From Echinarachnius parma (taxonomy: Eukaryota; Echinodermata; Echinoidea; Clypeasteroida; Echinarachniidae): 64,000 nt of DNA. Below, in pieces: positions 30,201 through 60,524 of the stretch; the stretch's first letter is position 1, and the number at the start of each line of letters is the position of its first letter. The notes below the pieces were generated by a model, which saw nothing but the letters and a program-made list of their open reading frames with translations, made no database searches and had not been told where the DNA came from. The position numbers were made by a program, and so were the translations under genes. The stretch is from assembly GCA_037951105.1 (NCBI GenBank), contig JBAMJV010008442.1:31904-95903 (forward strand), read 5' to 3'.

Positions 30201-33200
30201 CTGGATATAAAATAGAAAGGGATTGCTCAATTGATTAGAATAGAAAAAGAGAGAAAACTGAAGAAATTGGATTGCCTAGGAATGAAGGGGGCAGATAAAT
30301 GATACTTGGCAGTTCTCCGAGCGGTTAAGGGTACGACTAGCAACCGAGGCCGAACCACTTCTGACTCAGTGGTAACTCAGTCAATCAATTCAAATTCAAC
30401 AATTTCCTCAATTATCATCAGACGGCCCTCCACTTCTCTCCGCACACACAAGCTGTCCTTGCCTTTGTACTCTACTACTGATAACTCCCAGCTGGACGCG
30501 ATGATTTCTTCTCAAATTTCACCCATTTTTCGCTCTGGCTAATTTTCTTCCCAACAGAGCTCAACTCGGTACCTACTAATCTAAAAACACAACCATTGAA
30601 CTAAAATGCTGCCAAAGATCTTGTAAATAATTATGACTACTAGAAGAAAAGTGCACATGCACTCTTTATAATAGAAACCTCAGTGTGGTATCAAGTAACC
30701 CATTCAGGACTGATTGATTTTGCTCTAACATGCATTCTCCGTAGACCCCAGCCCAAGTATTTTCAGGACCAGTCCTGGAAGGGTTAAGCTATTCAAGACT
30801 ATTGATTTGGGTACAACATGCATTCTCCCAATAGACCCAAGCCCAAGATGATTCAGGACCTGTCTTGAATGGGTTTTAAATTGTTTGTAATTTGATATCT
30901 GCATGGAAATGTAGCAGATCATTTCTGAACTTGGCCTGCGTGCCTTGAATCAATGAATGAACATTAAGAGGGGGTTGAGTCAAGTATGAATCAACGAAGG
31001 GCTGCCGCAGCCGTAATGTGACCTTTAATTGATTCAACTACTTTGGATTAGTTCATTCAAGACCATTTTATATGGTTATAAGTTATAAAATGCACTTTCC
31101 ATAGATCCCAGACCAAATGCTTTAGACCAAATGGGTATAGACTACAAAGGTCTAGACCAAATAGGGACAGACCAAATAGGTGTACAGAAAAACAAATGGG
31201 CTTAGAGGGTAGACCAAAATTGGTGTAGACAACACTTACCACTCCTATCAGCCGCTCCTCCATGCATCACCCTGGCAATCACAATCATCCCAGACTTGGG
31301 GTCATACTTGATGGTAGCTCCCTGCAAGAACACATAAAAAGAAATAAGTATTGGATTATTCATTCATTCATTGAGTAATCTATTTAACCCCCTACGGGTA
31401 CCTAGTATGCTATTTAAAATGTCTATGGGGATTTTTAGAATCTCGAAGGGAACAAGTTCATAAATACATGCATGCAAGTATTTACTAATCATAAATCAAT
31501 CAATAAATTTATTCATTTATTCACCCATTCATTTAGTGAGACATTCAGTCATTCAATTTATTTCTTAGACTATCTCAAGATTACTCTCGTAATAATTTTA
31601 CACTGAATGTATTTCCTTATTTCATAACATTTTTGGACGGTTCCGACTAACTTCCAAATTCAAACAACAGTCAAGTATTCAAACTTTGTTTTTTTTATTT
31701 TTAGACAAGCTGAATTCTTAGAAACTATTTTGACAGTCAAATAGAGGTGTCAATTTCGGGAGTATTTACCTCCCGGGACTCGCGCTAAATTTTCGGGCGA
31801 GTCACGGGTACCCGAAATTTATCCATTTGTTGATTTCGCTATCGGCATGTCACGGCAGCTGGAAAAACATGTATGTATTTTTGCGGTTTTTGCTGCTGCG
31901 CCTGAACTACCTAATACGAATGGAAAATGAAATTGTATCGGGAGTCATCGATTCATTGCATGTACACAACTTGAATGAACTTGATAACTCTTGCGTTCAA
32001 TGAGGGGACTTTTGCTTTTTTTTCGGGATATCGAGTATTGATTTTTGCGCCCGGGACTCGACATTTTTCGGCGGGACCCGGGTACCCGTGACTCGTCAAC
32101 AGCACTACAGTCAAATATAAGCATTGAAAGCTATTTGCTGTACTATTTTGGACTCTTATAGACTACAGAAAATTAATAGTAGACAATGTAAACTCTAGAC
32201 ACGGATACATTGCACATGTACTACTTGCCGCTATGTCATATTTATAAGTAGAACAATGAAAACAGGTCAATTCCCACTAGATGGAGGTGGCAGACAAACA
32301 AAATGTTGTTGTCCCCGCTTCTACCTGTGGGCAGGATACGGTCCGATTAAGGGTCTCAATATATCTGGGCCAGCGTGAGACTAAATCCGTCTGCTTGAAA
32401 CTTGATACTTGGACCTGTCCTGTTTATCTATACTTTATAGATTTATTGTTCAGTGTAGACTTGTCTTTTCTTAAATTGAATGAGATCATCATATCATCAT
32501 ACATCATTTTGTTTTGCATGATATAAAAATGAACAAAATAATATCAAATGTATACCTTTTTTGTTTCGTATTTACATTATCAGTTTCAGCTAAAAACAAA
32601 AACAACTAATGAAACCTTTCAACAGTTTGGGCCTATTCATTTGAATAATATCCATAGAAAATACGTACTGTAACTATTATTTTGTTTTTATAATCAACAT
32701 CTAATTTTAATGTATAATTACAAAAACATAAAATAGTCTATAACTATCCAGTGACGCATGATGGAGAATGATCAGGGACATGTCCTCAACACGTTCCGAA
32801 ACCAAACTCGGAGATCGAGAGACAAAAGTCTTGCAAGCGCAAGTTTTGAAACCAAAATGTGTATCAAAAAGGCACATGATCGAGCGAGAATCTTGCAAGT
32901 TAAGTTTAGAAACTTAATGCACATTTCCTTTTCTGTAGTTGTGTATGCACATAAACATATTGCCTCTGGGCGAAAGGACATCTGTGTCTGATTATTGCAA
33001 CGTAGCAGGTCCGGGTGTCAAGTAGTTCGTTTAATTGATGTCTATTATAATCAAGAACCGGTTCTGGACTAAAAAAATTTGTTCAGGAATCAGGACTGAC
33101 TGCCAATAACGAAACGGTATCATTTTCTCAGGAAATTACTTGTATAAATATTATGGCCCATATGTTCATCAGAGGTTTATTTTCTTTCAATCAGGATCCG

Positions 33201-36200: not shown

Positions 36201-39200
36201 AAGGAAGGCTCCCCAGGGAGTGAAGATGGTGCACATAAAGTGTGCACGCTGGCATTTTTATCTTATGACTGGAGTAATGATAATGTTTGTAATGCAGTGT
36301 GAAGCGTTTAGAAATGTTACAGCCCGGTGAGAGTAAAAAGAACAAGTCAATTTGTTGCTGTTGAGTTCTGCATAACAACTTGTAGGTCAGAGCCTGTGAT
36401 GCAGAATTTCCAGATGATAATAATTTATAATTTTTTTGAAATATTTATCGAAATTTTAGGTCAGCGCCTCATCTATGTGATGACGAATTTCCAGATAATA
36501 ATAATTTATAATTTGTTTGAAGTATTCATTTTTTTAAATGTTAAAGAGTGCTACAATTGTTTTCTACAATCTACACAGCTCCCAAACTTTAAGCATGATT
36601 ATCTCTGAAGTACAGCAAGTGACTGAGTGCCCTTATCTTAATCCACCAACCATATTGTACATCAAGAGCTATATAAATCTAAAATATCATTATTATTAAA
36701 AACCAACTGTGAAAAGTGTTCATCCGCTTCACCATGGAAGCAAATCTACTTACAATTAGGCAACATCTGTGTTCTTGTTTCATTAATTGGAAAGGGTAAC
36801 TTTAGGTCGAGTATGTTTTGAAAACATGCAAGCACCATAAATGTACATGTACATGTATGTAAATAATCTACAACAGAAGGTTTCACAAGACATGTGTTCA
36901 GCTGAAACTCTGGGCTGGATTAACCCTCTTGAGTGCCTGCCATGATATGCTATAAATTATTTTAGATTTACTGCATATTATATGCCAATGGAAATGTAAG
37001 GGTTTATTACTTTCATACGCACACTTAATCCCCATGGTCTTGTGTGGGTTAATTTGAAACTGCAAAGAAACCCCCATCCAATACTCTCGGTGAATCATCC
37101 AATTTTCCCACACCCAAAAATTCACCATAATTTGTGAACTCGTAAAATCTGTCTCTGCTGTGAATGCTGTCATACACATGTCCCAAAAAATTGTGAACGT
37201 ATGTAACCTTATCTGTCACGTATGAGAAAATTTGTTGCATGTGTCTACCTTGACCAACTTTCTATAAAGATTTGCAATGAACAAGTAGTAAATGTCCCGT
37301 ATGAAATGTGACTGGCTACAACGAATCCCTCCACTTGTGGCAAATATTTTGTTCACCTAGCTCTTTGGATACACAACACTGGTTATCTAAGGTGGATAGA
37401 ATCTTTCTCTGTCCCTATCAAATTAATTTTGTCGAGTAATTTTGCTTAAATTACAGCTAATATAGTAGCTTCTTTAACTTCTTTAATTTGCTAAATAGGA
37501 ATTGAAAGAACCTGGTAGAACTTTCATCGTCATTTGCTTTTTGTGGTCATTTTAATTGCTTAAATTACAGCAAATTTAGTAACTAATTAAACTTGCTGAA
37601 TAGAAATGAAATAATCTGGTAGAAATTTCATCATCATTTGCATTTTTGTGGTTATTTTAATAAATTTGTGTAAAATATGAGAAGAGTAAAAATTATCAAA
37701 TCCAAGGAAAGTAGTGATGTTACATTATTTTGTTATAACATAGTAACGGCTCTAAACAACTTGCCCATACATTCAGGGATTCGGTAGTGGGCTGGAGCTG
37801 GACCGTTGCTTTCTTAGCAACTGCTTGGTCACAAAATTTCTGGCTTGCCTGACATTGTTCAGAACCATTACCCAAGGCATTGAATAGCCGTGACATCAAG
37901 CTTCGGTACTCTATACATCAAGTCTACAGACTAGACACTCAGCATACATTGGACTGAATAAGATAATGATACAAATTATGTCATGCACAGCCCCGCTGTT
38001 ACTGTTACTGTTACTGATACTTCCATTCACTTCTAGTCGATAATCTCTCTTGGGTATCACTAATAATGGAAATATTCAATGTATTCAATGTTTTCAGACC
38101 CATATCATCTGTATTGACTGACCACTGGAGGCTGCCATGTTTTCCAACAGTACACACGAAATGCAATGTGAGCATGCACGAACAAAATCTGGTTACGTAA
38201 CAACTGTAGTGGAGTCTGCAGCTATGTCAGTGGTTACGTAACCCATTTTTGTTTAAATGCACGCTGAGATGACGTTTCATATGCACTGTTGGAAAGCATT
38301 GCAGCCTCCAGTGATCAGTCAAAATATGATGGTAGTCTCAAAATCACTAATTATTTTCATTATAAGTAACACCATTTTAAGAGGAAATATATACGAATAG
38401 AAATGAAAGTAATTATGCGCTTATCAGTAACAGTAAGCAAAATGCAAGCATTTGGCTTCCATTTAAGTGGCTAAAGTTATCATAATGATATATCATCTAG
38501 TTATCCTCACCAATGGTTCCACGCTCTTCACCAGCTTGACGATCTTCACTCCCGGCTCTTCGTCGTCGCTGCACAGCGGCGTGATCACATCATCGTCGTC
38601 CTCGGGAAACTCCGGCGGCAGCTCGGGCTCGTAGTCCTTGTTTGCAATCTGGTCATGGATGTCAAATACCGCCCTCATGTGGGCTCGGGTGAGCAGGCAG
38701 CACAGCTCCATGACCTCTGGCATGTTGACAAAATCCTGCAGCTCCTCACATACCTGAAATTTTATGAAGATAAAAACAACAATTTTACGATAATTTGCTA
38801 TAATTTTGATACAGATTGCAAAATGATATTGTTAGTTTGAAACATTTACTATAACTTTTTCTGTAATTTTGGGTCAAAATTTATTTATACTTTTTTTGCC
38901 ATTACAATAACAATTTTGCAATTGTAACATTTTAAAAAGGTATTTTGAGTCAGGTCTTGATTGACATTTTTGTTTAATTCTTCCTAATTATTAATCTAAT
39001 ATAAAATAACAATAACATTAGATCTAAACACCAATTACCATTTCCGCCATCAAAACCCTTTTTTACCAAAATACACACCTCCATAAAAGCACAAATCCTC
39101 TCGATCAGTCCTGCTGACGAATTTCTAGTACACAAGCGCCCCATAGTGATTTAGCTCTCTCAGTCTTGCTTTACAGTACTAGTTTCACAGTCAGAATCTT

Positions 39201-42200
39201 GATTTGGTTTCACAGTCTCTGAGCTCTGAACAAAGAATGCAAAGCTCCTTAATTTATTGCCTTATATAGGGGGTGGTGAAACTCTGAGATCTTGATGATT
39301 GCGGTTGATGTGTGCGCTGATTGGTACAGCGAGAGAGAGAGAGGAGGGGGGTTTCGATTCAACGTCAATTTTCCTCGCACAAAACTTGTTTCTCAGCAGA
39401 ATTAACTGGTTTCCTTTTCGGGGGTAGCTCGTGTCCTCTTTAATTAGCTGCCCTAGAACACGACCCCGCGCAGGTATCGGTGGAAGGGAACCCCCGCTTA
39501 ATGAATCGCAGCACGATCGGGTCCTCTTCAATTGCTACTAGGCGATGCCGCAAGGGCCTTATGAATGGGGGCACGTCATTTCCCCCTCCAGATCAGAAGC
39601 ACATGTACTGCATGATTTGTACATAGATCTCTGTACGTACATGACTGTACCGTTACCAAGGGGGGATACTAGACACCCCTGTTAATTAATTAAGACATTC
39701 CACATGTCCTCATTTAACCCCCCTACATGTAGCAACGGGTGCTATTCTGACAAGGTGAATGACATTGCATGCATCTGCATAACTGGCTGCACTTGTTGAT
39801 TTGTGGACAGATCGTCTAGTCATGAATTTCACCTCGAACAATGTCAACGTAGTGTCAGTTGCGTTGATTACCCAGTGTCGTCATCAATTAAAATTTTCTC
39901 AGTGCAAATTACATAAGAATTTAGGGATATATAGGGATACAACGCAAGATTGTCTATTCATTTAACCTCTAACAATGTCAACGTAATGACATGCAGTCAC
40001 ATTTGGTTTGATTATTACCAAGTATCATCAATTAAATTTGTTGCACAAGAATTTGGGAATTATTGGATTCTATTAATTTCACTTCAAACAGTGTCAACAT
40101 AATGACATGCAGTCACATAAATGCATTGATTACCAAGTGTCATTTTTGATACAATTTGTTTGAAGTAAGAATACCCCAAAAAATGGAAATTGAGAAAAAA
40201 GTAGACAACTAAAAGAGATTGTCTTTCCATGTCACCTCAAACAGCATCGACCTAATGACACGCAGATTCGCTTGCATTAATTACCAAGTGATGTCATCAA
40301 TTAAATTAGCTTAAAATAAAATTGCACAATAATTTTGGAATCAGGATAAAAGCAGGCAAGTATGGATTATCTTTGCATTTCACCTCAACAGCATCAACCT
40401 AATGACACGCAGACTCACTTGCATTGATTACCAAGTTTTGTCATCAATTATAATCCCCCAGAGTAAAATGACAAGAGCTAGACCAAGTTCAGAACAAGAA
40501 CAAAATTAATCATAAGAACAAAGACTGTCAATAGAGGATTATCTAATAATATAACCCAACCAGTGTCAACCTAGTGACACACCAATTCATTAATGCTGAT
40601 CATCTAAATGCTGTCATCAATTATTCTGGGTCACAATAAAAACAAATTAAAAAGTTGTACACTATGTAAGCATCATGAAATCGGGACAAGCACTATCAAT
40701 TCTCCAAATCCGCAATATCCGTGGAAAAGTGGAATCGTTTTAATCATTTAAACTGATCAGACCTAAGCAAAATTTTAGACAACCAAGGTTCTTGAGCTTT
40801 TTTCCCCAAGAGAAAATGTTATACAATGTTATGCAACCTGTCTAGATAGAGGTCACCTGTCTACAGACAAGGCCACTTTTCATGTATTGTTTCATTTTGT
40901 TTAAAACTGGTTTGACTAAAATTAAAAGATGAGCAGAATCAATATGTCTTTTGCAGGCGGGGAAGGTAGAACAGGGTAGGAAATATACGGGGGCTGAGGG
41001 CGATTTTCACCCCTAATTATCAAAATAGCCCCCTTAAATCAGTAAGTAGCCCCTGAAATTACCATATAGGGTATTATGTGAAATATTTTTTGATATCCAT
41101 CAGATTGAAAAAGTAGCCCCCTAAAATTAAAAATTAAATTCTGCATTGAGGTAGAATTGTGGATTGCCTAGTCATACCACCGCACCAGTGTCAACCTATT
41201 GACACATGAACTCATCTGCAATGATTACTGAGTGTCATCTGCAATTACCTTGACTCACGGTAAAACTACAAAGGATTTCAGGAATAAGGAGCATAGCACA
41301 ATGATCCTTACGACAGTTGACAACGTGATAATGTGTTAATTCAAACCAGGGACTGGTAGCGAGTGAAGCGACAATTGCTGTTTTGTAATATGTATCTTAA
41401 TAACTATGTGTGGGTATCAATATTAGGAGGCAGCAATTTGACAAAAGAAGAACAAAATATTGTGGGCAAAAAGGAATGTTTGCTTTTCCCCATGGATTTG
41501 CAACATATTAGGGTGTAAGGGTGATTGCCCAGTTTGAGGGGTAGACAACTTAGAGAGCCTATAAAGTATAATCCTCTTTGTTATCGTGAATGTCTATTTC
41601 AACAGATCAGTTTTTCACATTTCTTTTGTAAATAAACATATGAAAATTCTTAATTCATCTGCGGATTAATTTATAGAACAAATTATATCAATATGAAATG
41701 TTAACTATGAGAAGCAAAGCTAGAAAAATTTCTGACAGATACATGACAAATTCTTAGCATTTCTCAAGAGACCAAACAATTTCTCATCATGCCTGCATTA
41801 ATTCAATTATTTGGCAACGATGAACTGGTGAGTTTGCAAGATATTATATCACACCTCACCACGACGCCTCTATGGGGGCTGGCAACGGCTAAATATAGGG
41901 GGCCATTAATTGGCGAGCATGATCTGAAGAGGTGTTTCCGTGAGAAATACTCATCAGTGGCATCGCTAGGGGCAACTGAGACAGGGGGAAAGAGGGGGCA
42001 TTTGGGGCATTTAGGGGACCTAGCCACCCTGACTCCCAATTTCACATAATTTGGGGGACACTTTAATAACTTTGGGAGCTTTTATATATATTTGGTGGAA
42101 CTCTTTTGAACATTTAGCTGGCTAAGCGGCCCTGATCCATTATTTATAATTCAACAATTTTTTTTTTTTAGGGGGGGGGGGGCTCCTATAATAATGCTTT

Positions 42201-45200
42201 TTGTGGGCTCTTGGGGCATTTAGAGGGACAACTTGCTGTGACGTGCAATTTTTAAATCATTTTGTGTGTGTTTGTTTTTTTTTTTTTTTTTGTTTGTTTT
42301 TTTTTGGGGGGGGGTATCGCATGATCTTTCAAGGACTCTTCAATGATTTTGAGGGTCCTTTAATGATTTTCCGGGGCTCTTGGGGGCATTCAGGGGGCTA
42401 ATTTGTCCTGATGCCTAATTCATAATCACATTTGAGGGCTCTTTAATGATGTTCTGGGCTCTTTGGGCATTTAGGGGGATAGGTTGCCAATTACGCCTAA
42501 TTTATTTATTCATTTTATTTATTTTTATTTTTATTTTTTTTGGGGGGGGGGTATTTCATTATTTTTCAGGGGCTCTTTGGGGCATTCAGGGGGCAAAGTT
42601 GCCCTGTCCCTAAATGTCTCATTATTTGGGGCATTTAGAGGGCTAAATTGCCCTGATTCCCCCATACATTCTTATCACTGGTATAGACAGGTGGGTGGCA
42701 AGGGGGGTAAACAAGTCAGAGGTGATTTACGGGAGGAGGATATGGACTGTAATTAGCCGTCGGCTCGGTACTTGCCGGTTCTTGGTGTCTACGAGTCTAC
42801 GAGGGGAAACTTCCCATAACTTGGCTATCTAGTACGTATAGGTATAAATCATGGACAAGACTCTGCATGTGCTTTATCCAAGAACTACTGAATCATTCCC
42901 AGTTAGACCAGTTTGGAAACTATATATGAATTATCAAAACAATTTTCTGTTCTTGTTAGTTTTTGGCGTCTACAAGTCTACGAAAGGAGACTTCCTATAA
43001 CTATACTACCTACATGAAGGTATAAATCATAGACAAGTCCCTGCATATATGTTACAGTTAACCACAGAACTACTGAATCATCCACAATTAGACCAGTTCC
43101 AAAACAATTCATAAATTATCTCATGAATTCCTAACACGGAGAGATTACAAACAATACCTGTGCTGGTTTTTAATTAAGGGAGAGTTTGCATTTGGGATCA
43201 CACTGTCAGAAAAAATGCATAAATTATCTTATGAATTCCAACATAGAAAGGGAGAGTTTGCATAATTTGAAAATACAGAAGGACGCTGTTCTTTGACAAC
43301 TTACAGTTAAATTACAGTTAAATTTCCAGTTAGAAATGTACAAAAATTACTTCAGTTCTAATCTGAACCAGTTTAAAAAACAGTTAAGATTTGTTTTGTT
43401 TTCCCTTTGAAATATAAATCTAAAAAGCTGAAGATCAGATTTTTAGTTGATAGCAGGCTTAATTGTGATAAACTGAACTTAAACTAACAGAATCAAAAAG
43501 AATAACTATTTAAAGAAATTCACCTCATAAAGTGTCTGGAATGCATTGTTGTCGGCTGGTGGGTACTTCCTGTCGTCAAAGTCTTCAATAACGGATGTAG
43601 CCTGTGCAGAGAGATCAAATGGAAGAGAATACATATATATTATTGTTAATTAGTTTTCTTTTCTCTAGATTTTTTTCATTAATCATTTCCATTAAAATTG
43701 TGCGACTTTTCCAAAAGATATTGCTATCAGTATCAGTAGGATATATTTTGATTTGATTTGATTTCTACATTTGTAACAAATAAATGAGAAAAAAATAAAT
43801 TATGAACATATTTTCTTACACACAATGCGTCTAAACTCTAAAGGTATTTATATTTTGGCTTTAGCATAACTGAAGCCCAAATTGATGTTAAATATTCTAA
43901 AATGCAACATTCTTCTAAATGTAAAATAAACTGTCAAAGTCGATTCCCCAAATTGTGTAAAATGAGTAATAATCAAAAACAGGAAGTTATCTGAACTCCA
44001 ATATTATTGTAATGATTCAATCTGATATGATGTGTATTTAAACGATCCCTTATAAAGACACCAGCTGAAAAGATAAATGTATCTCCCCCTCAAAAAGTAT
44101 CCCGACTAAAGAATAACTTCAAAAATAGAATATTACTCTGTTCAAAATTAACATCAGGCTAGTCTATCTGGAAGCAGATAAAATCCAACAAAAACTCTTA
44201 CTTGATGTCAAGGATGAATTTATTTCAAATTTTTGTTTACGTTATCACTAAGCAAAGGTTTAAGATTGAACTGGAGATTATCAGTGGGAAGGGGAGGAAA
44301 TCTACACGTTTTAGCTACTGACTCCCGCTGGCACCCCACTAAGATTCACACTTAAACCCATCCGGGATGGGAATTACTTCCAGGCATAATTGATCACTGT
44401 TTTGCCTATCAAATTGGCAACTCATAATGCCCCATTTCTTGCTATGATATAAATGTACAAAGTAATTGTTTAAAATTGAGATAAATAGAGTGAATCTAGG
44501 AAGAAGATGTTGAACTTCTCCACTTCTCTGAGAAAAGTTCTCTCAAATCATATCTCCATGCGGTTAGCATGAGGCAGGAAATCACCACTCATGGAGGGCT
44601 TGTTGACAAATAATCAGTAGAATAATTCATTTTTTTAATTAATGAGAATATAGCCTACAAGGTGTGATTTTGATATTTCTGTGCATTAGTTTTGTTTAAA
44701 ATGAATTTATTTCAACTCAATAATACTATACACTTCAGTTATGCTATAAATTTACTCTTTACCCAGTTGGCGAGTACATGTACATAATAAAAGCTATTTA
44801 AATCTAACCCTAAGTGGCCCAAAACCCGAATCTGGTGGCCAAACAACGAATAACTTTAGCAAGTCCATCATATTTGGGCAAGTAAATTCAAGCATCAATG
44901 TTACAATTATACTGGCCCAAAACTAGTTTTAGGAGGCCCTGGGCCTGGGCCAGCAGGTCAGTGCTAATCTTGAGACATGTATAGAAAACAGTGCAAGATG
45001 TTATTTTTATCAAAGCAGATTTCAAATTTGAAATGTCATGTATGTAATAATATTTTCCCTTTCTTCCATGTTATATTGCTACAAATAAGAATATATTTAC
45101 AACATATACAGGCTTGACATATATATCCTTTAAATATGAATTAATAATCTTAATTCAATTTGATAAGACTTTCAAAAAGTGAAACCATACAATTTCTGTA

Positions 45201-48200: not shown

Positions 48201-49381
48201 CAATAATCAATAACTTAATTTTGCCTGTCTGTATGTATGTATGTAGTGTGACTTTGTAGTTTGTACATGTGTTAGTTGTTTTATTGTCAACAAAATTGTT
48301 ATTCTTGGTTTAGTTATGATATTATTTATGGTGTTGTAGAAAAAGGGGACCGGCCTAGACAGGCCAATGGCCTTTTCTGGTCCCTCACATCCCTGGATTA
48401 CACATTATTTATATTTGTTGTTGTTTGCTGTTGTACAATATCTTTTGTCATTACATGTTGTAAAATAGTTTGTATATTTATATATTTGTATTTGATTGTA
48501 AAATGTTGATTTTATGGATGTGAAATAAACTGAACTGAACTGAACTGAATTAGGTTCAGGAAAATTCCTTCGCTGATTCACTGGAGTCACACCACAAGTG
48601 TTGGGTCTGAAAAGTATATTAGAACGCTATCAAATATCCATCAGATCTGTAAATTGCAGCAAGTGGGAGTATTGACGCTTCAATTCTGGTTTATTTTTGT
48701 AACATAAATATTTTGCTACTGTATGCTATTTCCTCAAAAGAGAAATTTATGTATAAATAGGGAAATATTTGTGAAATATTCATATTTATAATGCTGCTTA
48801 ATATGCTTAAATTATTAGCTTGCAATCATGTAATTTCCTTAAAAGAGAAATATATAAATAGTGAATACATAGGTACGTGTACAAGTATAGGCAACGATCA
48901 GAATTAACTTGTCATGGCTTTAATTCCTCCAAAAAATAGGCCCCAAATCTGACATAGGTGGCCCAAATCAAAGAAAACAGTTAAAAATACATTTCTTTCT
49001 GCATTTCAAAATGACTAGACTAGTCTAGTAAAAACATTTTGTTAATAATAGACCAAGTTAAAACCAGGCATAAAACAGTGAGTTCCTTGTTGCTGAGGAT
49101 ATTACAGTACTCAGGAACAGTTCACTCTCACTTTGTTTTCTTTAATATGGTCCCACAAATCTGGTCCAAACATGGATACTGGATTTGTAATTAACATGTA
49201 CAGTAATACTAGTCTAGATAAAACCTAATTGAAAAGTCCTAGTCTTGAATTGTGGAACTAACCTGGCACAGAGCAGCCAGCTCCTTATTGTTGAGGAGAT
49301 TCCTCAGGAATAGCTCGTTCTCATGTTGTCCTCCGATGGTCCCACATATCTGGTCCAAGCAGCCCAGCAATTGCTGCAGAG
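3109..49381 (-). CDS. PALS1: MAGUK p55-family scaffold, PALS1/MPP5 (Stardust)-like; 15 exons, N-terminus not in view
   Basis: Fifteen minus-strand exons join in frame into 615 residues plus a stop. In order they give two L27 domains (about residues 1-135), a PDZ (138-222; ligand-binding loop EPLGATI), a hinge, an SH3 (267-333; FDYNP, KGDILHI, DPHWWQA), a basic hook (GNKRKIKK, then LTYEEVSLY) and a guanylate-kinase domain (411-610; P-loop-like GPPGVGRNELKRRL, then PHTSRPKR and IEYGEYKGHLYGTS). The protein ends WVPSKWLR, the usual end of p55-type MAGUKs. Family members are non-enzymatic membrane scaffolds; PALS1 links Crumbs to PATJ in apical polarity complexes. The hook, guanylate kinase and C-terminus favour PALS1/Stardust; the second L27 (AVFDIHDQIA) and the PDZ (GGAADRSGLIHVGD) also recall MPP3/7. 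Human PALS1 has about 675 residues, so some 60 N-terminal residues are missing. The first exon starts mid-codon, so at least one exon lies upstream. Family assignment is firm; orthology is likely. Confidence 0.9.
3575..3722. repeat. Dispersed 'tggccactgtagacagg' repeat
   Basis: Phrases such as 'gtggtcactgtagacagctgg' and 'aagacaggtttaactgtag' recur at 29340-29470 and, in part, at 25790-25980 and 40845-40885. This is an interspersed repeat, not coding; it lies in the last intron. Confidence 0.6.
3821..3961 (-). CDS. PALS1: MAGUK exon: guanylate-kinase core strand
   Basis: The exon has 141 nt, phase 0 at both ends, acceptor 'attgcag|TCACTG' and donor 'ATC|gtgagt'. It encodes 47 residues starting SLRIMKQSELKPYVIYIKPP. 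The LKPYVI-IKPPS stretch is characteristic of p55-type guanylate-kinase domains. Confidence 0.9.
4156..4358 (-). CDS. PALS1: MAGUK exon: guanylate-kinase GMP-binding region
   Basis: The exon has 203 nt and completes a codon split after one base (CCT C|AT, giving P-H). It encodes HTSRPKRIMEEDGNEYYFVS, then RLIEYGEYKGHLYGTS, the region that binds GMP in true guanylate kinases. Donor is CAG|gtgag. It matches MAGUK members, which lack kinase activity. Confidence 0.92.
4867..4946. repeat. TTAA-bounded ~80-bp dispersed repeat, copy 1
   Basis: It begins 'ttaaccccttgcc' and ends 'agggaagaggttaa', giving a short inverted repeat flanked by TTAA, with a core 'ctatggggtc'. It lies in the intron beside the P-loop exon. 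Related copies are listed separately. Confidence 0.6.
4963..5043 (-). CDS. PALS1: MAGUK exon: guanylate-kinase P-loop
   Basis: The exon has 81 nt, acceptor 'tatgcag|GGCCCC' and donor 'CCTC|gtaagt'. It encodes GPPGVGRNELKRRLMACDPD then MFGSAIP. The glycine-rich loop keeps the family layout. Confidence 0.9.
5232..5311. repeat. TTAA-bounded ~80-bp dispersed repeat, copy 2
   Basis: It begins 'ttaacccattgctcacggg' and ends 'gtagacaggttaa', with the core 'agtctatggggg'. It is the same family as 4867-4946, only 290 bp away. Confidence 0.6.
5427..5513 (-). CDS. PALS1: MAGUK exon: hook end and start of guanylate kinase
   Basis: The exon has 87 nt, acceptor 'ttccag|ACTATGG' and donor 'ATTG|gtaaga'. 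It encodes DYGNEEVLTYEEVSLYKPTQ then RPIVLIG. The LTYEE..LY motif just before the first guanylate-kinase strand is typical of PALS1/Stardust. Confidence 0.9.
6008..6091 (-). CDS. PALS1: MAGUK exon: basic hook region
   Basis: The exon has 84 nt, acceptor 'ttttag|GTTTGC' and donor 'GAAG|gtac'. It encodes a polybasic stretch, LRVSGRSSFRGNKRKIKKVM then YQAKQNE. In p55-type MAGUKs this hook carries basic clusters that bind protein 4.1/FERM partners; binding is inferred. Confidence 0.85.
6260..6588. mobile_element. Foldback/MITE element with 27-bp perfect terminal inverted repeats
   Basis: The left end reads 'cctggggggcattgcataaa' and the right end is its exact reverse complement over 27 bp. The 329-bp body is filled with the word 'ttgcgtttgat' and its reverse complement, roughly ten copies in both orientations. 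It has no coding capacity and sits in a MAGUK intron. Confidence 0.75.
6817..6896 (-). CDS. PALS1: MAGUK exon: SH3-to-hook segment
   Basis: The exon has 80 nt, acceptor 'ttgcag|GAGATT' and donor 'AGTA|gtaagt'. It encodes RLANKRSIINGSLGYNPTLD then LSFKKS. It joins the SH3 exon (codon split AG|G) and the basic hook exon in frame. Sequence here is variable within the family, so support comes from frame and splice sites. Confidence 0.78.
7142..7338 (-). CDS. PALS1: MAGUK exon: SH3 domain
   Basis: The exon has 197 nt, acceptor 'cccgcag|GTCAAAG' and donor 'AGAG|gtatgt'. It encodes nearly the whole SH3: VKVRAHFDYNPYEDELNPCP, then [20 protein letters not shown] and RAGLIPG. The WW pair and the AGLIP end are family hallmarks. 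Two decayed partial copies of this exon follow at higher coordinates. Confidence 0.93.
7452..7516 (-). pseudogene. Decayed partial copy of the SH3 exon (copy 2)
   Basis: On the minus strand the acceptor 'tcctcag' is followed by about 64 nt matching the start of the SH3 exon (VKVRAH-YNPY), then a 4-nt insertion shifts the frame into a TGA stop. Homology stops near the PCP codons. The spacing from the true acceptor is 178 bp. Confidence 0.8.
7704..7738 (-). pseudogene. Decayed partial copy of the SH3 exon (copy 3)
   Basis: The acceptor 'ccgcag' is followed by about 35 nt encoding VNVRAHFEYNP, clearly derived from the SH3 exon start. The pyrimidine tract before it is a long C run (the G run at 7743-7770 on the plus strand). 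Homology is lost after 35 nt, so it cannot replace the SH3 exon. Confidence 0.75.
7743..7770. repeat. Poly-G tract
   Basis: A near-continuous G run of more than 25 bases with one T. It abuts the acceptor of the decayed SH3 exon copy 3 and could form G-quadruplex structure on the plus strand. Confidence 0.9.
8150..9076. repeat. Five-copy 180-bp tandem array with A-B-C-B-A variant order
   Basis: Units begin near 8163, 8342, 8521, 8701 and 8881; the last three are spaced exactly 180 bp. A shared core reads 'actcagtcatgatgtttgga'. Variant bases after 'ggaaa' show that units 1 and 5 share 'cggtaagtagacttgg', units 2 and 4 share 'tggtcaacagactaga', and unit 3 is intermediate. Non-coding, intronic. 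Confidence 0.9.
9077..10151. other. Intron between hinge and SH3 exons
   Basis: I see no gene. Two copies of an approximately 130-bp segment containing 'acaagtttctactgctcacataaa' occur near 9840 and 9970. The rest is AT-rich and featureless. Confidence 0.5.
10152..10268 (-). CDS. PALS1: MAGUK hinge exon between PDZ and SH3; possible cassette exon
   Basis: The exon has 117 nt (39 codons), phase 0 at both ends, acceptor 'catgacag|GGCGTA' and donor 'CAAG|gtttgt'. It encodes a Pro/Ala-rich linker, GVATSPPPLLGATSNPTAMG, then AAAAALVEDFHTAIRDPLK. The flanking exons are also phase 0, so skipping it would keep the frame and shorten the PDZ-SH3 linker. It has no family motif of its own, so support is splice sites, frame and position. 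Confidence 0.75.
11205..11310. repeat. Poly-C run, (AAAT)n and (CATA)n microsatellites
   Basis: About 18 C bases are followed by A-rich (aaat)n near 11250-11278 and a short 'catacatacatacatac' tract near 11295-11313. Low-complexity intronic DNA. Confidence 0.85.
11345..11600. repeat. Dispersed 'gggcaagt/cttgccc' repeat, copy 1
   Basis: It contains repeated 'ttgggcaagtaaaa', 'acttgcccactc' and 'gcgggcaagtgattgtgtc' words. Related sequence occurs at 44810-44960 and 45390-45670. The spaced inverted 'cttgcccg...cgggcaag' suggests an old foldback element. Confidence 0.55.
11657..11700. repeat. Poly-G/purine tract
   Basis: A run of about 19 G bases is followed by a G/A-rich tract. Low complexity, intronic. 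Confidence 0.9.
11853..11928. repeat. TTAA-type ~80-bp dispersed repeat, copy 3
   Basis: It begins 'ttaacctgttccctactgg' and ends 'gtcaatgggtta', with the core 'aatccccatagagtt'. Same family as 4867-4946, in opposite orientation. Confidence 0.6.
11950..12200. repeat. Two-copy decayed tandem repeat, spacing ~160 bp
   Basis: 'gatcaaattttagactttt' near 11980 is matched by 'gatcaagttttcaattttt' near 12140; each is followed by 'ctggttcat' or 'caggttcat' and later 'tgcctg'. Intronic. Confidence 0.5.
12560..13085. repeat. Three-copy tandem array, period ~175 bp, abutting the last PDZ exon
   Basis: 'ttcatgctatcactcatgaa', 'gcatgctatcagtcatgaaa' and 'gcgtgctatcggtcacaaat' mark units near 12697, 12868 and 13043, each with 'gtcattgtttcaca' upstream. 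The array ends about 35 bp from the MAGUK exon at 13120. Confidence 0.75.
13120..13194 (-). CDS. PALS1: MAGUK exon: PDZ C-terminal strand
   Basis: The exon has 75 nt, phase 0 at both ends, acceptor 'gacttcag|GCCTCA' and donor 'CCAG|gtagc'. It encodes ASLDGSITFKLIPADVDPKK then VNHSQ. The GSITFKLIP pattern is the last PDZ strand of p55-type MAGUKs. Confidence 0.88.
13350..13389 (-). pseudogene. Decayed copy of the PDZ-exon 5' boundary
   Basis: About 40 bp match the exon/intron boundary at 13172-13211 at roughly 33 of 40 positions ('gaggcgtgaagtcaagaaac' versus 'gaggcctgaagtcaagaaaa'). The spacing is 179 bp. The acceptor AG is lost, so it cannot splice as an exon. Confidence 0.65.
13757..13811. 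repeat. Dispersed repeat fragment shared with the gene's 3' UTR
   Basis: 'gaagactctgctaggattga' followed by 'cggccaaaaatttattctc' matches 2917-2970. It contains a 'ctgatga...gaaa' spacing reminiscent of a hammerhead core, but no good stem II is visible. Confidence 0.5.
13890..15300. other. Intronic DNA with a (CAA)n tract; no supported gene
   Basis: It is less AT-rich than its surroundings near 14400-15280. A (caa)7 microsatellite lies at 14880-14901 inside a 157-codon plus-strand frame that shows no domain or plausible splice context. Confidence 0.45.
15471..15727. mobile_element. MITE with imperfect terminal inverted repeats, copy 1
   Basis: The left end reads 'tgaccggctatagcaaaaac' and continues 'ctggcactt'; the right end reads 'agtgccgggttttgctatta' and then 'aaggcaggtcgca', giving inverted ends of about 30 bp with small gaps. 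A second copy starts at 63833 with nearly the same first 170 bp. Size is about 257 bp, non-coding. Confidence 0.7.
16130..16640. other. C-rich intronic patch with a 72-bp duplicated segment
   Basis: 'gacattaaccatcggtaacc' near 16269 and 'gacattaaccatcgtaacct' near 16342 mark a local duplication in a stretch richer in C than its flanks. No coding signal was seen. Confidence 0.4.
16930..18370. repeat. Decayed tandem array, period ~160-190 bp, about seven units
   Basis: Units carry 'tactgatttatatc'-like words near 17143, 17483, 17643, 17824, 18013 and 18198, followed by 'ggaagagaaatatgacagt' and 'gtcccataggaaag'. The last three units are closest to one another. Plus-strand frames of about 60 codons are by-products of the repeat. 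Confidence 0.8.
19000..19620. repeat. Four-copy tandem array, period ~165 bp
   Basis: 'gacccattcatgcttgacc' occurs at about 19226, 19390 and 19558, with a weaker version near 19079. Each is followed by 'ttctac..gacca' and 'ttttgcctaa'. Non-coding, intronic. Confidence 0.8.
19834..19913. repeat. TTAA-bounded ~80-bp dispersed repeat, copy 4
   Basis: It begins 'ttaacctgttcccctcgaga' and ends 'ggtcaaggggttaa', with the core 'tctccatagactttgtac'. A full-length member of the same short family, 80 bp. Confidence 0.65.
20000..22690. other. Large-intron DNA, no gene recognised
   Basis: 'tggataaattctct'-type units near 20190, 20810 and 20970 are weak local repeats. At 21040-21390 the DNA is markedly richer in G and C, but open frames there show no domain. 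Confidence 0.4.
22690..23105. repeat. Two-copy tandem repeat, spacing ~216 bp
   Basis: 'tatgcaaatgacatacattt' near 22696 and 'tatgcaaatgacacacattt' near 22912 start two similar units; both contain 'gaggttcttaagacccatta' and end 'aataag..cttctcag'. Confidence 0.75.
23105..24600. other. Intronic DNA, nothing recognised
   Basis: Both strands show only short AT-rich open frames. No splice-supported exon, RNA gene or complete repeat was found. Confidence 0.4.
24605..24690 (-). CDS. PALS1: MAGUK exon: PDZ middle
   Basis: The exon has 86 nt, acceptor 'ctcacag|GTCTCA' and donor 'CCTG|gtgagt'. With the split G it encodes GLIHVGDKVQEVNGIPVKGR then DPEEVTHFL. The HVGD...EVNG core is typical of PDZ domains of this family. 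Confidence 0.92.
25730..26010. repeat. Tandem units of the 'aaacctgtctataaagaccacc' repeat
   Basis: Three units of about 105 bp contain 'tagtacagtcaaaccagtcc', 'agtgtctataaagaccagcc' and 'aaacctgtctataaagacca', each followed by 'ctccactg.ttattccaata'. Related to the dispersed repeat at 3575 and 29340. Confidence 0.65.
26100..26430. repeat. Three-copy tandem repeat, period ~120 bp
   Basis: 'gaattgaaagaatatggaag' occurs near 26117 and 26236; a third, weaker unit near 26362 ends in a (gat)n tract. All contain 'gatgaacagca..taattaa'. Confidence 0.65.
26430..27140. other. Intronic DNA, nothing recognised
   Basis: No exon with family similarity or good splice sites was found, and no clear repeat structure. 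Confidence 0.4.
27140..28340. repeat. Decayed tandem array, period ~200-240 bp, about five units, with a foldback inside
   Basis: Units share 'ggacac.ttcttga', 'cctgcagtta', 'aatgacagttc', 'tatcacttgacag' and 'cactcaaattagc'. Anchor words 'ttcaaattagc' lie near 27291, 27661, 27900 and 28128. A 152-bp foldback element interrupts one unit. Confidence 0.7.
27475..27626. mobile_element. 152-bp foldback element flanked by CAGG target duplication
   Basis: The left end reads 'gccccgttggagaaagagtt' and the right end is its near reverse complement; both arms continue through 'caatcgattgtaa'. CAGG stands on both sides (27471-27474 and 27627-27630), inside a tandem unit that is continuous elsewhere. 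A diverged relative is at 53320-53488. Confidence 0.75.
28900..29560. repeat. Direct duplication (~75 bp, 580 bp apart) and dispersed 'tggccactgtag' repeat
   Basis: 'atctattgtaaaaacactgc' near 28898 recurs as 'atctattgtaaaaatgctgc' near 29480, each followed by an 'acaac.a..gggag...gcaggtt' stretch. Between them, 29340-29470 is a copy of the dispersed repeat also seen at 3575. Confidence 0.55.
29829..29923. repeat. TTAA-bounded ~95-bp dispersed repeat variant
   Basis: It begins 'ttaactccttgagtgcctga' and ends 'ggcaatcaaagagttaa', giving inverted ends with TTAA on both sides and a core 'gccatagagctg'. Probably a divergent member of the same short family. Confidence 0.5.
30150..30182. repeat. 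Poly-C tract
   Basis: More than 25 C bases, interrupted once by A. It is the complement of a G run and one of many such runs in this window. Confidence 0.9.
30710..30880. repeat. Two tandem ~85-bp palindromic units ('taacccattcaggac')
   Basis: Both units run from a 'ttcaggac'/'ttcaagac' start through 'aacatgcattctcc' and 'gacccaagcccaag' to a 'ggaagggttaa'/'gaatgggtttta' end. A weaker third copy is near 31045-31110. Confidence 0.55.
31240..31321 (-). CDS. PALS1: MAGUK exon: PDZ first half
   Basis: The exon has 82 nt, acceptor 'cttgcag|GGAGCT' and donor 'AGTG|gtaagt'. It encodes GATIKYDPKSGMIVIARVMH then GGAADRS. With the preceding exon it completes the EPLGATI carboxylate-binding loop. Confidence 0.92.
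31384..31459. repeat. TTAA-type ~80-bp dispersed repeat, copy 5
   Basis: It begins 'ttaaccccctacgggtacc', has the core 'atgtctatggggattt' and ends 'cgaagggaacaagtt'. The right TTAA has decayed. Confidence 0.5.
31460..33060. other. Intronic DNA, no gene recognised
   Basis: A stretch at 31745-32110 contains 'tcccgggactcgcg' and later 'gcgggacccgggtacccgtg', apparently an old dispersed repeat with inverted ends. Nothing else is identifiable. Confidence 0.4.
33060..33310. repeat. Two-copy tandem repeat, spacing ~136 bp
   Basis: 'ggaatcaggactgactgc' occurs near 33085 and 33221, each followed by '.accattttctc.ggaaa' and 'cttgtataaa.at' and then 'catcagag.tt'. Confidence 0.7.
33336..33642. mobile_element. 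MITE with 'gggtgtttcacaaagat' ends, copy A
   Basis: The left end reads 'gggggtatttcacaaagata' and the right end, reverse-complemented, 'agggtgtttcacaaagatta'; both arms continue 'ttaagttgaac'. The body differs from the element at 47638, which has almost the same ends. It directly follows the 33060-33310 repeat. Confidence 0.7.
33690..34810. other. Intronic DNA, no gene recognised
   Basis: Short repeated phrases around 'aatgtgtgcatttatg' near 34620 and 34755 indicate weak local duplication. There is no supported exon. Confidence 0.4.
34810..34896. repeat. TTAA-type dispersed repeat, copy 6
   Basis: It begins 'ttaacctgttcccgattaga' with the core 'atgtccatctaggg' and ends 'ggcaattcgttac'. It is about 87 bp, with a decayed right end. 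Confidence 0.5.
35590..35733 (+). repeat. Probable retroposon 3' end with (CAAAT)n tail
   Basis: A 'gtactgttatataccttgta' stretch is followed by 'tttccatgaatttggacaat' and then (caaat)4. A pentamer microsatellite at the end of a transcript-like 3' region is typical of LINE/SINE 3' ends. The 5' limit is a guess. Confidence 0.45.
36390..36540. repeat. Two-copy tandem repeat, ~85 bp
   Basis: 'gaatttccagatgataataa' and 'gaatttccagataataataa' start near 36403 and 36487; both continue 'tttataattt.tttgaa.ta'. Confidence 0.7.
36610..36705 (+). repeat. Probable retroposon 3' end ('gctatataaatct...attatta')
   Basis: The phrase 'atcaagagctatataaatct' followed by an attatt tail resembles the 3' ends of non-LTR elements or SINEs common in invertebrates. 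Assignment by resemblance only. Confidence 0.4.
37430..37680. repeat. Two-copy tandem repeat, ~115 bp
   Basis: 'tgcttaaattacagc' occurs near 37442 and 37557, followed in both by 'ctggtagaa.tttcat..tcatttgc.ttt' and 'tttgtggt.attttaat'. Confidence 0.7.
38114..38322. mobile_element. ~209-bp foldback element
   Basis: The left arm 'ttgactgaccactggaggct' and continuing 'tttccaacagt' is matched in reverse complement by the right arm; the arms meet around 'gttacgtaac', itself palindromic. Arm length is about 85 bp with scattered differences. No clear target duplication was found. It lies about 190 bp from the second-L27 exon. Confidence 0.7.
38511..38753 (-). CDS. PALS1: MAGUK exon: second L27 and PDZ start
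   Basis: The exon has 243 nt, phase 0 at both ends, acceptor 'atttcag|GTATGT' and donor 'CATTG|gtgagg'. It encodes VCEELQDFVNMPEVMELCCL then LLTRAHMRAVFDIHDQIANK, an L27 helix pair, an acidic linker (EFPEDDDD, SDDEE), and VKIVKLVKSVEPL, the first PDZ strand. It can be joined to the exon at 43524-43601 or to the alternative first exon at 39079-39144, because both end in phase 0. Confidence 0.92.
39079..39144 (-). CDS. PALS1: Candidate alternative first coding exon (short MAGUK isoform)
   Basis: An ATG in strong start context (A at -3, G at +4) with an in-frame TAA nine bases upstream opens 22 codons, beginning MGRLCTRNSSAG and ending ICAFME. A GAG|gtgtgt donor then allows an in-frame (phase 0) join to VCEELQDF of the second-L27 exon; an alternative donor 15 nt later (TTG|gtaaaa) is also in phase. 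The protein would lack the first L27. Upstream are a TATA box at -30 and a CCAAT box at about -82. No transcript evidence is available; this is inferred from signals. Confidence 0.55.
39233..39330 (-). promoter_or_regulatory. Candidate internal core promoter: CCAAT, TATA, initiator
   Basis: On the minus strand a CCAAT box (39320-39324), the TATA box TATATAAG (39261-39268, inside 'cctatataagg') and an initiator-like 'gcattctt' with A at 39238 lie at about -82, -30 and +1. The implied 5' UTR of about 94 nt leads to the ATG at 39144. A TGACGTG (CRE-like) word lies further upstream near 39572. Spacing is that of a TATA-class RNA polymerase II promoter. Confidence 0.55.
39810..41240. repeat. Decayed tandem array, about seven units, period ~115-175 bp
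   Basis: Units share 'caccta.gacacgcag' or 'gtcaacgtaatgacatgcag', then 'ttgattaccaagtgtcatca' and 'attaaattt'. Anchors lie near 39840, 39975, 40090, 40245, 40395, 40565 and 41190. Between the last two lies an unrelated stretch. Intronic. Confidence 0.75.
41980..42680. repeat. G-rich decayed tandem array ('ggggcatttagggggc')
   Basis: Five or so units contain 'gggctctttaatgat', 'ggggcatttagggggcta' and 'ttgccctgattcc', roughly 100-160 bp apart, with poly-G and poly-T runs near 42170, 42270 and 42540. Plus-strand frames of 60-90 codons here are repeat artefacts. Confidence 0.7.
42775..43110. repeat. Two-copy tandem repeat, spacing ~180 bp
   Basis: 'cttggtgtctacgagtctac' near 42781 and 'ttttggcgtctacaagtcta' near 42960 begin two units that also share 'aggtataaatcatggacaag' and 'gaactactgaatcatcc'. 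Confidence 0.8.
43524..43601 (-). CDS. PALS1: MAGUK exon: linker between L27 halves
   Basis: The exon has 78 nt, phase 0 at both ends, acceptor 'ctgcacag|GCTACA' and donor 'TGAG|gtgaat'. It encodes ATSVIEDFDDRKYPPADNNA then FQTLYE. Sequence conservation is low in this region of the family, so support is splice sites, frame and position. Confidence 0.8.
43700..44800. other. Intronic DNA, nothing recognised
   Basis: A short reverse (CAAAT)n tail, 'gatttgatttgatttc', lies near 43750 and may end an old retroposon on the minus strand. Otherwise no gene or ordered repeat was seen. Confidence 0.4.
44810..45670. repeat. Dispersed 'ggcccaaa/gggccagcaggccagt' repeats, copies 2 and 3
   Basis: At 44810-44960 and 45390-45670 occur 'ggtggcccaaa', 'actggcc', 'cttgcccgatcgggccacca' and 'gggccagcaggccagtg'. 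This is the same family as 11345-11600. The 151-codon plus-strand frame at 45501-45956 is mostly this repeat. Confidence 0.6.
46670..47105. repeat. Poly-G-rich repeat with 'acccagg' inverted ends
   Basis: G runs of 10-15 bases occur at 46676, 46988, 47052 and, as C, at 47080. 'gcatacccaggatttttt' at 46858 and 'ctgggtacgcctgtg' at 47089 face each other as imperfect inverted ends. Confidence 0.55.
47325..47637. repeat. Decayed tandem repeat ('gtcaaatgagtaccct')
   Basis: 'ggtcaaatgagtaccctaca' near 47382 and 'gtcaaatgagtaccctatgt' near 47506 mark two units. A 48-bp segment containing 'cttatgaatggtccgatcag' is repeated directly within the second. Both end 'tactgctaataaa'. Confidence 0.65.
47638..47969. 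mobile_element. Foldback MITE with ~135-bp arms and 'gtgtttcacaaagat' ends, copy B
   Basis: The left arm from 'ggtgtttcacaaagatcctt' through 'atgttgattcaaatcatata' is repeated in reverse complement on the right at about 90% identity or better. CAGG-like words flank it ('gagcagg' left, 'ccaggag' right). It shares its ends, but not its body, with 33336-33642. Confidence 0.85.
48240..48550 (+). repeat. Probable retroposon 3' end with (ACTGA)n tail
   Basis: The segment contains 'gaccggcctagacaggccaa', a T-rich stretch and 'gatgtgaaataaac' followed by four or five 'tgaac' repeats. A pentamer tail after 'aataaa' is typical of non-LTR or SINE 3' ends. Confidence 0.5.
49078..49168 (-). pseudogene. 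Decayed copy of the first-L27 exon (copy A)
   Basis: It aligns along about 90 bp with the true exon at 49263-49381: 'tccttgttgctgagg', 'ctcaggaacag', 'ggtcccacaaatctggtcc' versus 'tccttattgttgagg', 'ctcaggaatag', 'ggtcccacatatctggtcc'. In the matching frame it reads LDQICGTI and then meets stops. The spacing is about 190-198 bp. Confidence 0.75.
49263..49381 (-). CDS. PALS1: MAGUK exon: first L27 domain
   Basis: The exon has 119 nt, acceptor 'ttcttacag|CTCTGC' and donor 'CCAG|gttagt'. Starting with a split codon it encodes LQQLLGCLDQICGTIGGQHE then NELFLRNLLNNKELAALCQ, an L27 helix pair with the family-type 'NEL.FL..LL.NKEL' pattern. The two leading bases complete a codon from an upstream exon that I could not find in the window. 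Confidence 0.82.
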
Positions 49382-58050: not shown

Positions 58051-58060
58051 TTTAAAGAGT

Positions 58061-60520
58061 AAATGGCACTTAAAGTTAAACAAACATTTAACAATAACAT
58101 GTTAATGTCAACAAATAACCATTCAAAACAGGACACAACATTATGCTCCATACCTAACAATAGCAACCATACAATAAGAGAGTTTCACAATAACTGAGTT
58201 GTGACAATATTAATTCTTTATTATTATCTTGAGATCAAGTACTAAGTACAATTTGACCAAAATATAATAGCTAAATGAGCAAACTCGCAAAGACAATTGG
58301 GCTTTGCTGGGAATCGAATCCGAGACCTCCGGAGTGCTAGATCAGAGCTTAAAATCCTGACGTCTCGGGATCAATACCTTGCAGAGCCTTAGAGTTCCTC
58401 TGTAGAGTTCCTCTGTATGTCTGAATTTTCAAAATATACTAATCATTAACTGAGGTACAAATAACAAAAGGATTACCTTGATTACCAGAATTTCCAGAAA
58501 TGTATGAAATATTTACAAAATAAAAAAGTCAGTGTTGGTAAACTGTACAATCTAGGCTAGATCTAGATGTGGAATGTGCATTAAAAGTGCGCTACCATTG
58601 ACAGAGAGGACATCTTCATGAGACTTGACATAATCTAGGGTACGATGACAAGCTACTAGCTTCAGAGCTGGTCATTAGTAATTAGGTCTCGTCAGTCAAT
58701 GACAACATGACAATACAGTACCAGAGTGATGAGAACGTTCTGCGAAACCTCTTCCATGTTTCTATTGGTAATATGAATACAATGAGGTATGTGAAAACCT
58801 CTAGAGTTCCAAGTAAGTTTTTATGTTTTTGACAATGTTACTAGTTTTCCTTTAACTGAGACATTTAGAGAACCTGATTAGCATTCAGGTTACATTGATG
58901 CAAGAAGATAACTGCAGGGGGAACTGTACTGGGCAATTCAGCCCAAAAAGTGTTATAAAAAGAGTGTATAAAAAGAGACCCCCATAAAAAGTTACAGAGT
59001 TCAAAGAACAACAATTTCCGGGTGCTGTTTTAATACTGACCTACATAATTATACATTTCTAACTTTTATAATAAGTAGCCCTAGAAAATAAAATTTTAAT
59101 TTTCCCAACGGAATTAAAAAATATATACTTATTTGCAAACTAACATACCCTGGAATGTACATACATGTACATACAATATTTTCAAATTGAGATTGCAGAC
59201 ATACAGCACACGTAACTGTAATTCCGATAATTTACAGACCATATTATACACACGTGTCATTTTAATTAAGTGTAACAATTTCCCCATCCACATGCAGTAC
59301 TTGTCCTTCCATTATCATCTGAAAAAACACATGTTGTGATCAAAGCATGGTGTCAACGTTCATAAAGATCGAGTACAGTACAGGTATGTATTGTACTGTG
59401 GGAAAGGTTTGTGAAGAATGACAATCTGATGTCATCACTTGCATCATCATCATCATCATTGAAAATGTACTATCATTGAAAAGTATGACATGTACATATA
59501 TTGTTTGGTTGTGGCCTACCAAGACAATTTGGGGGGAATTCAAAGTTCAAACGCAGCCTAAAATCATAGATCAAACGTAAATTGTCCACAGAATAAACCT
59601 AACCATTACAGTAGCTAAAGTGAATTCTGGAATTGTTTATACCTGTATTAAATTAATTGTACTTAACTGCTCAATAAAATGTAAAAGTCATTTTGCTTTT
59701 GAACATTTCAATTTCATAATGATGGAAGAGGAATATGGTAGACCACCTTATCAGGTCACCTTCAGGTCAAGTAGTTATTATTATTGTCCAGATTCTCCAG
59801 TCCAGACAGACACTGACAAATCTAATTATCGAGAACCGGGAAGAGGGTGATAATGGGCGCAATAGATCAGAAAACTTCCTTTTCTTGCAATTTTTTAATC
59901 CACGGCCTACAGGAACCTGTGGTCCCTGGTACTTTTCGTTACTAGACCAAGGCCTATTAGGGGAATCTTCAAAATTATAAGCTCAATTTGCGACAATATT
60001 TTGTTCATTGGACCAGAGGAGACACTTAACGCTGACTATAATGAGAGTAGATATGACCACAACAAAACAAAGAAACGCAAAATCTTGAAGGCAAGGGGTT
60101 AAGAAATGTGTACATGGATTAACAACTCTGGTCCATTCACGGGTCTTCAAAGTCTCAATCATTCTTGGTAATGGGGCATACCAAGGATTATCAAAAAATA
60201 TCCACCTTGTTAAATTGTTTTGGTCATATTTGGCCTCGTTGCAGTCAGCGTTAAGTGTCTCACCTTAATTGTCCAACAAACAAAATGTTGCCGCAAATTG
60301 AGCTTTAAATTTGTAGATTACATGTACCTTAATAGGATATGGTCTAGTAATGAGAAGAGCAAGACACTTTTTATAAGACAAACAGTTAAAGGGAAATGGC
60401 AGTAGTGGGAAATAACTTTATTAGTCCAACTAATTGATTAGTATTATTGAAATAACATAAAAAGGAGCGTGTGTGGAAAAATCTGAACCTTACTATCGTC
60501 AAATGCAGAAATATCAGTTA
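58061..60520. other. Non-coding DNA right of the LINE; nothing recognised
   Basis: A (cat)n tract lies near 59440-59458. A tRNA-like B-box word ('ggattcgattcc' on the minus strand, near 58315) stands alone without a matching A box or cloverleaf. No MAGUK N-terminal exon could be identified. Confidence 0.45.
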
Positions 60521-60524
60521 AAAC

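Follow-up and report, generated by a model that had tools for sequence, protein, structure and literature searches.

A candidate internal TATA promoter and first exon for an L27N-less isoform of an MPP-type MAGUK gene in Echinarachnius parma

In varicose and DLG2, a second start inside the gene is already established as a source of short MAGUK (membrane-associated guanylate kinase) scaffolds that lack L27 domains. According to a study of Drosophila varicose, a gene of the MPP2/MPP6 group (PMC2414870), Vari-short is made from exon 3a through a second start inside the gene and is the essential form; the same paper states that MPP4 has a retina-specific shorter form without the N-terminal L27 and that human MPP6_a lacks both L27 domains. 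DLG2 is described as having alpha and beta forms whose alternative promoters swap the L27-bearing N-terminus for another, palmitoylated in the alpha forms (PMC6389146), and for Drosophila CASK-alpha an internal promoter is reported to yield a short MAGUK transcript from which the 5' exons are absent (PMC10559581). Here we analyse the final 64 kb (the window) of a 95,903-base contig, contig and window ending together, from the 1.2-Gb genome of the echinoid Echinarachnius parma, which carries an MPP-type MAGUK gene on its minus strand. The intron directly ahead of the exon for the second L27 domain (L27C) contains what we consider moderately likely to be an alternative TATA promoter with its first exon, from which an L27C-PDZ-SH3-guanylate kinase isoform without the first L27 domain (L27N) would arise.

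Like varicose, this is an MPP-type MAGUK gene in which an internal second start would give a form without L27N (PMC2414870); Vari-short, in contrast, lacks both L27 domains and has its start codon in a shared exon, whereas here L27C would stay and the first exon carries its own ATG. The retina form described for MPP4 offers a further likeness, being the shorter product of an MPP that lacks the N-terminal L27 (PMC2414870). As described for DLG2 (PMC6389146), promoter choice would exchange an L27-bearing N-terminus, but DLG2 belongs to another MAGUK subfamily with three PDZ domains, and lipidation of the MGRLC N-terminus encoded here is putative. No L27C-only form of MPP7, MPP3 or PALS1 with its own promoter was found in the open-licence literature, among the matches listed. 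MPP4 is a near relative of MPP3 and MPP7; CASK, whose long form is reportedly the one with CaMK-like and L27 domains, differs from the window gene in its CaMK-like domain. The site is plausible, if unproven, as a further case within the varicose and DLG2 pattern, with an internal promoter known also in CASK.

Promoter words and the candidate first exon

The site and the exons to which it relates are the following.

49263..49381, minus strand: L27N (first-L27) exon of the long form, from a weak tblastn match, splice sites and likeness to MPP7
43524..43601, minus strand: probable middle exon of the long form, 26 codons, phase 0/0, acceptor 10.2, donor 7.9
39320..39324, minus strand: CCAAT box, NF-Y-like, in TACCAATCAGCG, about −86 relative to +1 = 39238
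39261..39268, minus strand: TATA box TATATAAG, first T at −30
39238, minus strand: putative transcription start, A of TGCATT, matching the initiator (Inr) word BBCABW 27–33 nucleotides (nt) past the TATA start
39079..39144, minus strand: coding part of the candidate first exon, MGRLCTRNSSAGLIERICAFME, 22 codons, phase 0 donor GTGTGT
38511..38753, minus strand: L27C (second-L27) exon and linker, common to both forms, Pfam L27 (PF02828) 32.2 bits, E 8.3e-8

The promoter words, ATG, frame, donor and phase are present as the first-pass annotation of this DNA had described them. On the minus strand a TATA word at −30 precedes an initiator-type word at +1 by about 30 nt (39268 to 39238), a TATA-class spacing; BBCABW is the human initiator word. 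The CCAAT box is there too, but its position needs correction, since it had been placed at about −82 and its start at 39324 lies at about −86 if +1 is 39238. CCAATCAG occurs in 2 copies in the window, both strands counted; of the flanked TATA form [CG]TATA[AT]AAG[GCA] the window, counted in the same way, has one copy and the 252.5 kb of sampled genome 7. When 38700–39400 was compared with the whole genome the single match was itself, a self-only match being no proof of rarity, and Rfam at gathering scores gave no match.

Two ATGs lie between the TATA word and the donor, at 39144 and 39084, both in the coding frame; the strong one is that at 39144, with A at −3, G at +4 and a TAA in frame at −9, and the leader leading to it from 39238 measures 94 nt. 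This agrees with the earlier claim of a strong-context ATG about 94 nt after the start behind an in-frame stop, and the 22-codon exon described as having a GT donor in phase with the second-L27 exon about 330 bp on was likewise recovered: the candidate intron from 39079 to 38753 is 325 nt long, and the frame runs on in phase 0 into VCEELQDF. Scored with donor and acceptor tables that were written by hand, the GTGTGT donor after 39079 reaches 8.5, and three other scored donors of the gene lie at 7.1–8.8. Because they both join L27C in phase 0, the candidate first exon and the probable middle exon are exchangeable, with junctions FQTLYE/VCEEL in the long form and ICAFME/VCEEL in the short form. 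Phase 0 to 38753, together with the L27N exon upstream, fits an alternative first exon in layout alone, not in use; and since the L27N exon lies upstream (49381–49263), a transcript from 39238 would lack L27N.

Mechanical screening for a phase-0 middle exon gave 14 candidates, sharing 12 distinct tails between them. The 43601–43524 tail gives 37.7 bits and lengthens the Pfam L27C match by 3.8 bits; a rival tail ending at 44378 scores higher (40.1 bits) yet depends on two poor acceptors (−1.4 and 3.9, versus 10.2), which is why 43601–43524 is kept, as probable only. The L27C match itself scores 34.1 without a tail, 35.0–35.2 with the tail of the new exon (ICAFME before VCEEL) and 37.7–37.9 once the probable middle exon is attached, the rival tail reaching 40.1; the new exon outscores 10 of the 12 other candidate tails. 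An origin of the alternative exon by duplication of the middle exon was considered and rejected, since one local DNA alignment spanned just 7 columns and the other, at the donor, 12.

Some 0.55–1.4 kb upstream of the putative promoter, 39819–40641 holds a diverged local repeat with families of 3–5 copies, spaced mostly 116–173 nt apart (one gap of 269); recurring pieces include GTCATCAATTA, and Tandem Repeats Finder made no call here. Compared with the window and 21 sampled loci, the segment 38991–40300 matches only this repeat, at about 39.8–40.6 kb, and a weak place near 41.2 kb.

Joint rarity of the elements and competing readings

Promoter-like words and a short open frame might also have met in this intron by chance and be functionless, a reading that we regard as unlikely. 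The words are short, TATA words abound (the window has 38), and the criteria were set post hoc; the combination is nevertheless jointly rare in the window, in the sampled genome and in simulation. It was defined as TATAWAAR preceded at 20–100 nt by CCAAT in either orientation and accompanied by a first ATG in strong context, from which 15 codons or more lead to an in-phase donor scoring no less than 6. So defined, the full combination occurs at 1 of the 38 TATAWAAR words of the window (both strands), at none of 128 TATA words on both strands of 21 loci sampled from this genome (20 contig starts plus a stretch of the contig analysed here; 210 kb, of which 7.5 kb is N), and in 0, 0 and 2 of 2000 simulated introns of 4770 nt under three Markov models. 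The promoter words considered separately, as TATA with an NF-Y-type CCAAT and an initiator, coincide at 1/38 TATA words in the window and 0/138 in the sampled genome (26 loci, 252.5 kb without N). The match of phase and donor likewise speaks against chance.

Several points weigh against an internal promoter. The criteria for these counts having been chosen only after the site was seen, the true odds must be less extreme, and the figures are a guide rather than a clean p-value. TATA, CCAAT in either orientation and an initiator also occur together at 3 of the 138 sampled TATA words, and for this reason the three words alone are not decisive. Adding the new exon raises the L27 score by about 1 bit, a rise surpassed by 2 of the 12 other candidate tails. 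Base composition adds little: across 39101–39800 the 500-nt stretches have a GC content of 0.48–0.49, compared with 0.368 for the whole window, and are surpassed by 1.7–3.5% of stretches in GC and by 10–11% in the observed-to-expected CpG ratio (39301–39800: GC 0.490, higher in 1.7% of 500-nt stretches; CpG ratio 0.73, higher in 11%). This patch gives weak support, because the L27C exon is as CpG-rich as the surroundings of the putative promoter and CpG is matched or nearly matched near 31.6, 49.8, 54.3, 56.4 and 60.4 kb. Finally, a strong acceptor-like site (9.4) stands between the TATA word and the ATG, as in an internal exon.

That site underlies the main rival, which we take most seriously even though we judge it quite improbable, and in which the same exon is an internal cassette.

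39079..39225, minus strand: the same exon read as an internal cassette, 147 nt, acceptor-like site before 39225, two in-frame stops before the ATG

As a poison exon (39225–39079) between the middle and L27C exons, it would leave TATA and CCAAT to chance and, when included, would truncate the long protein immediately behind L27N or lead to mRNA decay. The acceptor-like site, gctttgcattctttgttcag/AGCTCA, scores 9.4, within the 5.2–14.3 spanned by the gene's eight assigned acceptors, and the length of 147 nt is a multiple of three. The frame consequently carries on, but meets TGA and TAA; read from the middle exon, the cassette gives SSETVKPNQDSDCETSTVKQD, then TGA, TAA and ATG. The 26 sampled loci have 0.39 acceptor-like sites of at least 9.4 per kb of strand, the window minus strand has 40 and this 4770-nt intron 2, and from such site densities the chance of one in the 116 nt from TATA to ATG is estimated at about 5–7%. 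A pyrimidine-rich start region may, moreover, mimic an acceptor, and a cassette exon leaves unexplained both the spacing of TATA, CCAAT and initiator and the strong ATG behind stops.

The 147-nt exon might instead be a hybrid, used either as a TATA-driven first exon or as a stop-bearing internal exon, which we regard as a long shot. In human data hybrid exons are described as common: in one gene-structure set about 35% of the alternative first exons are of this type (PMC10256964). Were the exon a hybrid, the scaffold would be cut between its two L27 domains, and the gene could switch between a complete linker and two separate halves, one of them possibly with a lipid-anchored N-terminus.

It is highly improbable, in our view, that a real promoter drives a non-coding RNA here, or a transcript unspliced to the L27C exon. 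Nothing specific favours this, beyond the fact that promoter words do not by themselves fix a transcript, whereas the orientation, first ATG, donor and phase suit the MAGUK gene.

The host MAGUK gene

The short isoform would share, besides the L27C exon, the remaining exons of the gene.

31240..31321, minus strand: PDZ exon 1, ends by eye
24605..24690, minus strand: PDZ exon 2, ends by eye
13120..13194, minus strand: PDZ exon 3
7142..7338, minus strand: SH3 exon, Pfam SH3_2 41.5 bits
6091-6008, 5513-5427, 5043-4963, 4358-4156, 3961-3821, 3285-3109, minus strand: hook and guanylate-kinase exons to the stop, ends by eye

By its sequence the host gene is an MPP-type MAGUK: L27, PDZ, SH3 and guanylate kinase follow in MPP/p55-type order on one strand, and the order L27N-L27C-PDZ-SH3-guanylate kinase is that of MPP7, MPP3 and PALS1. 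PDB entry 4wsi (PDZ-SH3-guanylate kinase of PALS1) matches the gene at E 3.8e-99; Pfam also finds the PDZ domain, and Guanylate_kin at 68.6 bits on the 4126–4536 frame. The reading frames stay open all the way from L27N to the terminal stop, apart from one hinge segment between SH3 and hook, which was not found within the gene and is judged missing because the end of the SH3 exon and the start of the next have unfit phases.

The L27N exon shows a weak tblastn match to MPP2 (E 0.59) and 25% identity to MPP7 over 40 residues. When it was joined to the following exons, Pfam at a lax cut-off of 10 reported two L27 stretches, the second unpositioned in the output; L27N with the middle exon alone gave no L27 match in Pfam, and a PDB search with the L27N exon none at E 10. 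Upstream of it, 10 mechanical candidates for a first coding exon were collected in the window, none convincing. The densest CpG upstream of the L27N exon in the window, 21–26 CpG per 500 nt, lies at 60201–61100, a possible place for the gene's main promoter, where no convincing first exon was found.

Three further features accompany these exons, all on the minus strand. A decayed tandem copy of the L27N exon follows just downstream of the real one (49064–49172); the two align from TTGGACCAGAT as far as the donor end, over some 100 bases of the exon, with gaps that break the frame. At 7655–7738 a partial second SH3 exon (VNVRAHFEYNPEES...) comes after a long C run and roughly 0.4 kb ahead of the complete one; in it SH3 similarity fades and the frame runs to a stop. 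Upstream of the L27N exon, 55501–58101 contains an 866-residue open frame that by eye resembles the reverse transcriptase of a retrotransposon without long terminal repeats (non-LTR).

The first-pass annotation had taken the gene for PALS1/Stardust. Comparison with human MPP7, MPP3, PALS1, MPP2 and MPP1, all entered by hand, gave the following identities.

Overall: MPP7 43%, MPP3 40%, PALS1 39%, MPP2 37%, MPP1 30%
L27C: MPP7 39%, MPP3 43%, PALS1 30%, MPP2 30%, MPP1 5%
PDZ: MPP7 64%, MPP3 59%, PALS1 46%, MPP2 45%, MPP1 34%
SH3: MPP7 55%, MPP3 55%, PALS1 50%, MPP2 54%, MPP1 48%
Guanylate kinase: MPP7 44%, MPP3 34%, PALS1 42%, MPP2 40%, MPP1 30%

In L27C, linker and PDZ (64% versus 46%) the gene is, judged by these identities, nearer MPP7/MPP3 than PALS1, which speaks against the PALS1/Stardust label; among PDZ entries in the PDB search, MPP7 reaches 109 bits and PALS1 about 68. 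The hook leans to PALS1 (46% versus 40% for MPP7), as does the probable middle exon (19% versus 8%), and SH3, guanylate kinase and L27N (23–25%) discriminate little. A six-row tree places the window gene, PALS1 and the MPP3/7 pair in an unresolved fork. That PALS1 is the best overall PDB match does not decide the question, because no MPP7 guanylate kinase is among the 46 sequences listed.

Consequences of an L27N-less form

The short isoform claimed by the first-pass annotation thus stands, as a hypothesis, in its words, ATG, donor, phase and upstream L27N exon, but not in its PALS1/Stardust label. A TATA-type RNA polymerase II promoter in the intron directly ahead of the L27C exon would start transcription near 39238, and a short first exon, with a 94-nt leader and 22 codons, would be joined to the L27C exon by removal of a 325-nt intron. 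The resulting protein would be MGRLCTRNSSAGLIERICAFME fused to L27C, with the new N-terminus MGRLC..., keeping L27C, PDZ, SH3 and guanylate kinase and losing L27N. Cys5 is a possible palmitoylation site, judged by the example of the DLG2 alpha forms (PMC6389146); Arg3, a charged residue after Gly2, disfavours myristoylation.

L27N is described as binding DLG1 in MPP7 (PMC7662862) and PATJ in Stardust (PMC5180163), L27C binding LIN7 in both; N-terminal ECR1/ECR2 motifs of PALS1/Stardust are further reported to bind PAR-6 (PMC5180163). The short form would therefore lose its L27N partner, DLG1 if the gene is MPP7-like or PATJ if PALS1-like, and would keep the LIN7 contact through L27C; since the second L27 would be nearly complete with the new tail, LIN7 binding is likely kept. 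The loss of PATJ proposed earlier is not established, the gene being nearer MPP7/MPP3 and the L27N partner of MPP7 being DLG1; with PALS1/Stardust identity unsupported, a lost PATJ contact is a guess.

If used, the promoter would give a form that binds a LIN7-type partner yet is unable to join the L27N partner, a simple route to uncoupling two polarity or junction modules at the scaffold, and it would be another instance in which promoter choice removes an L27.

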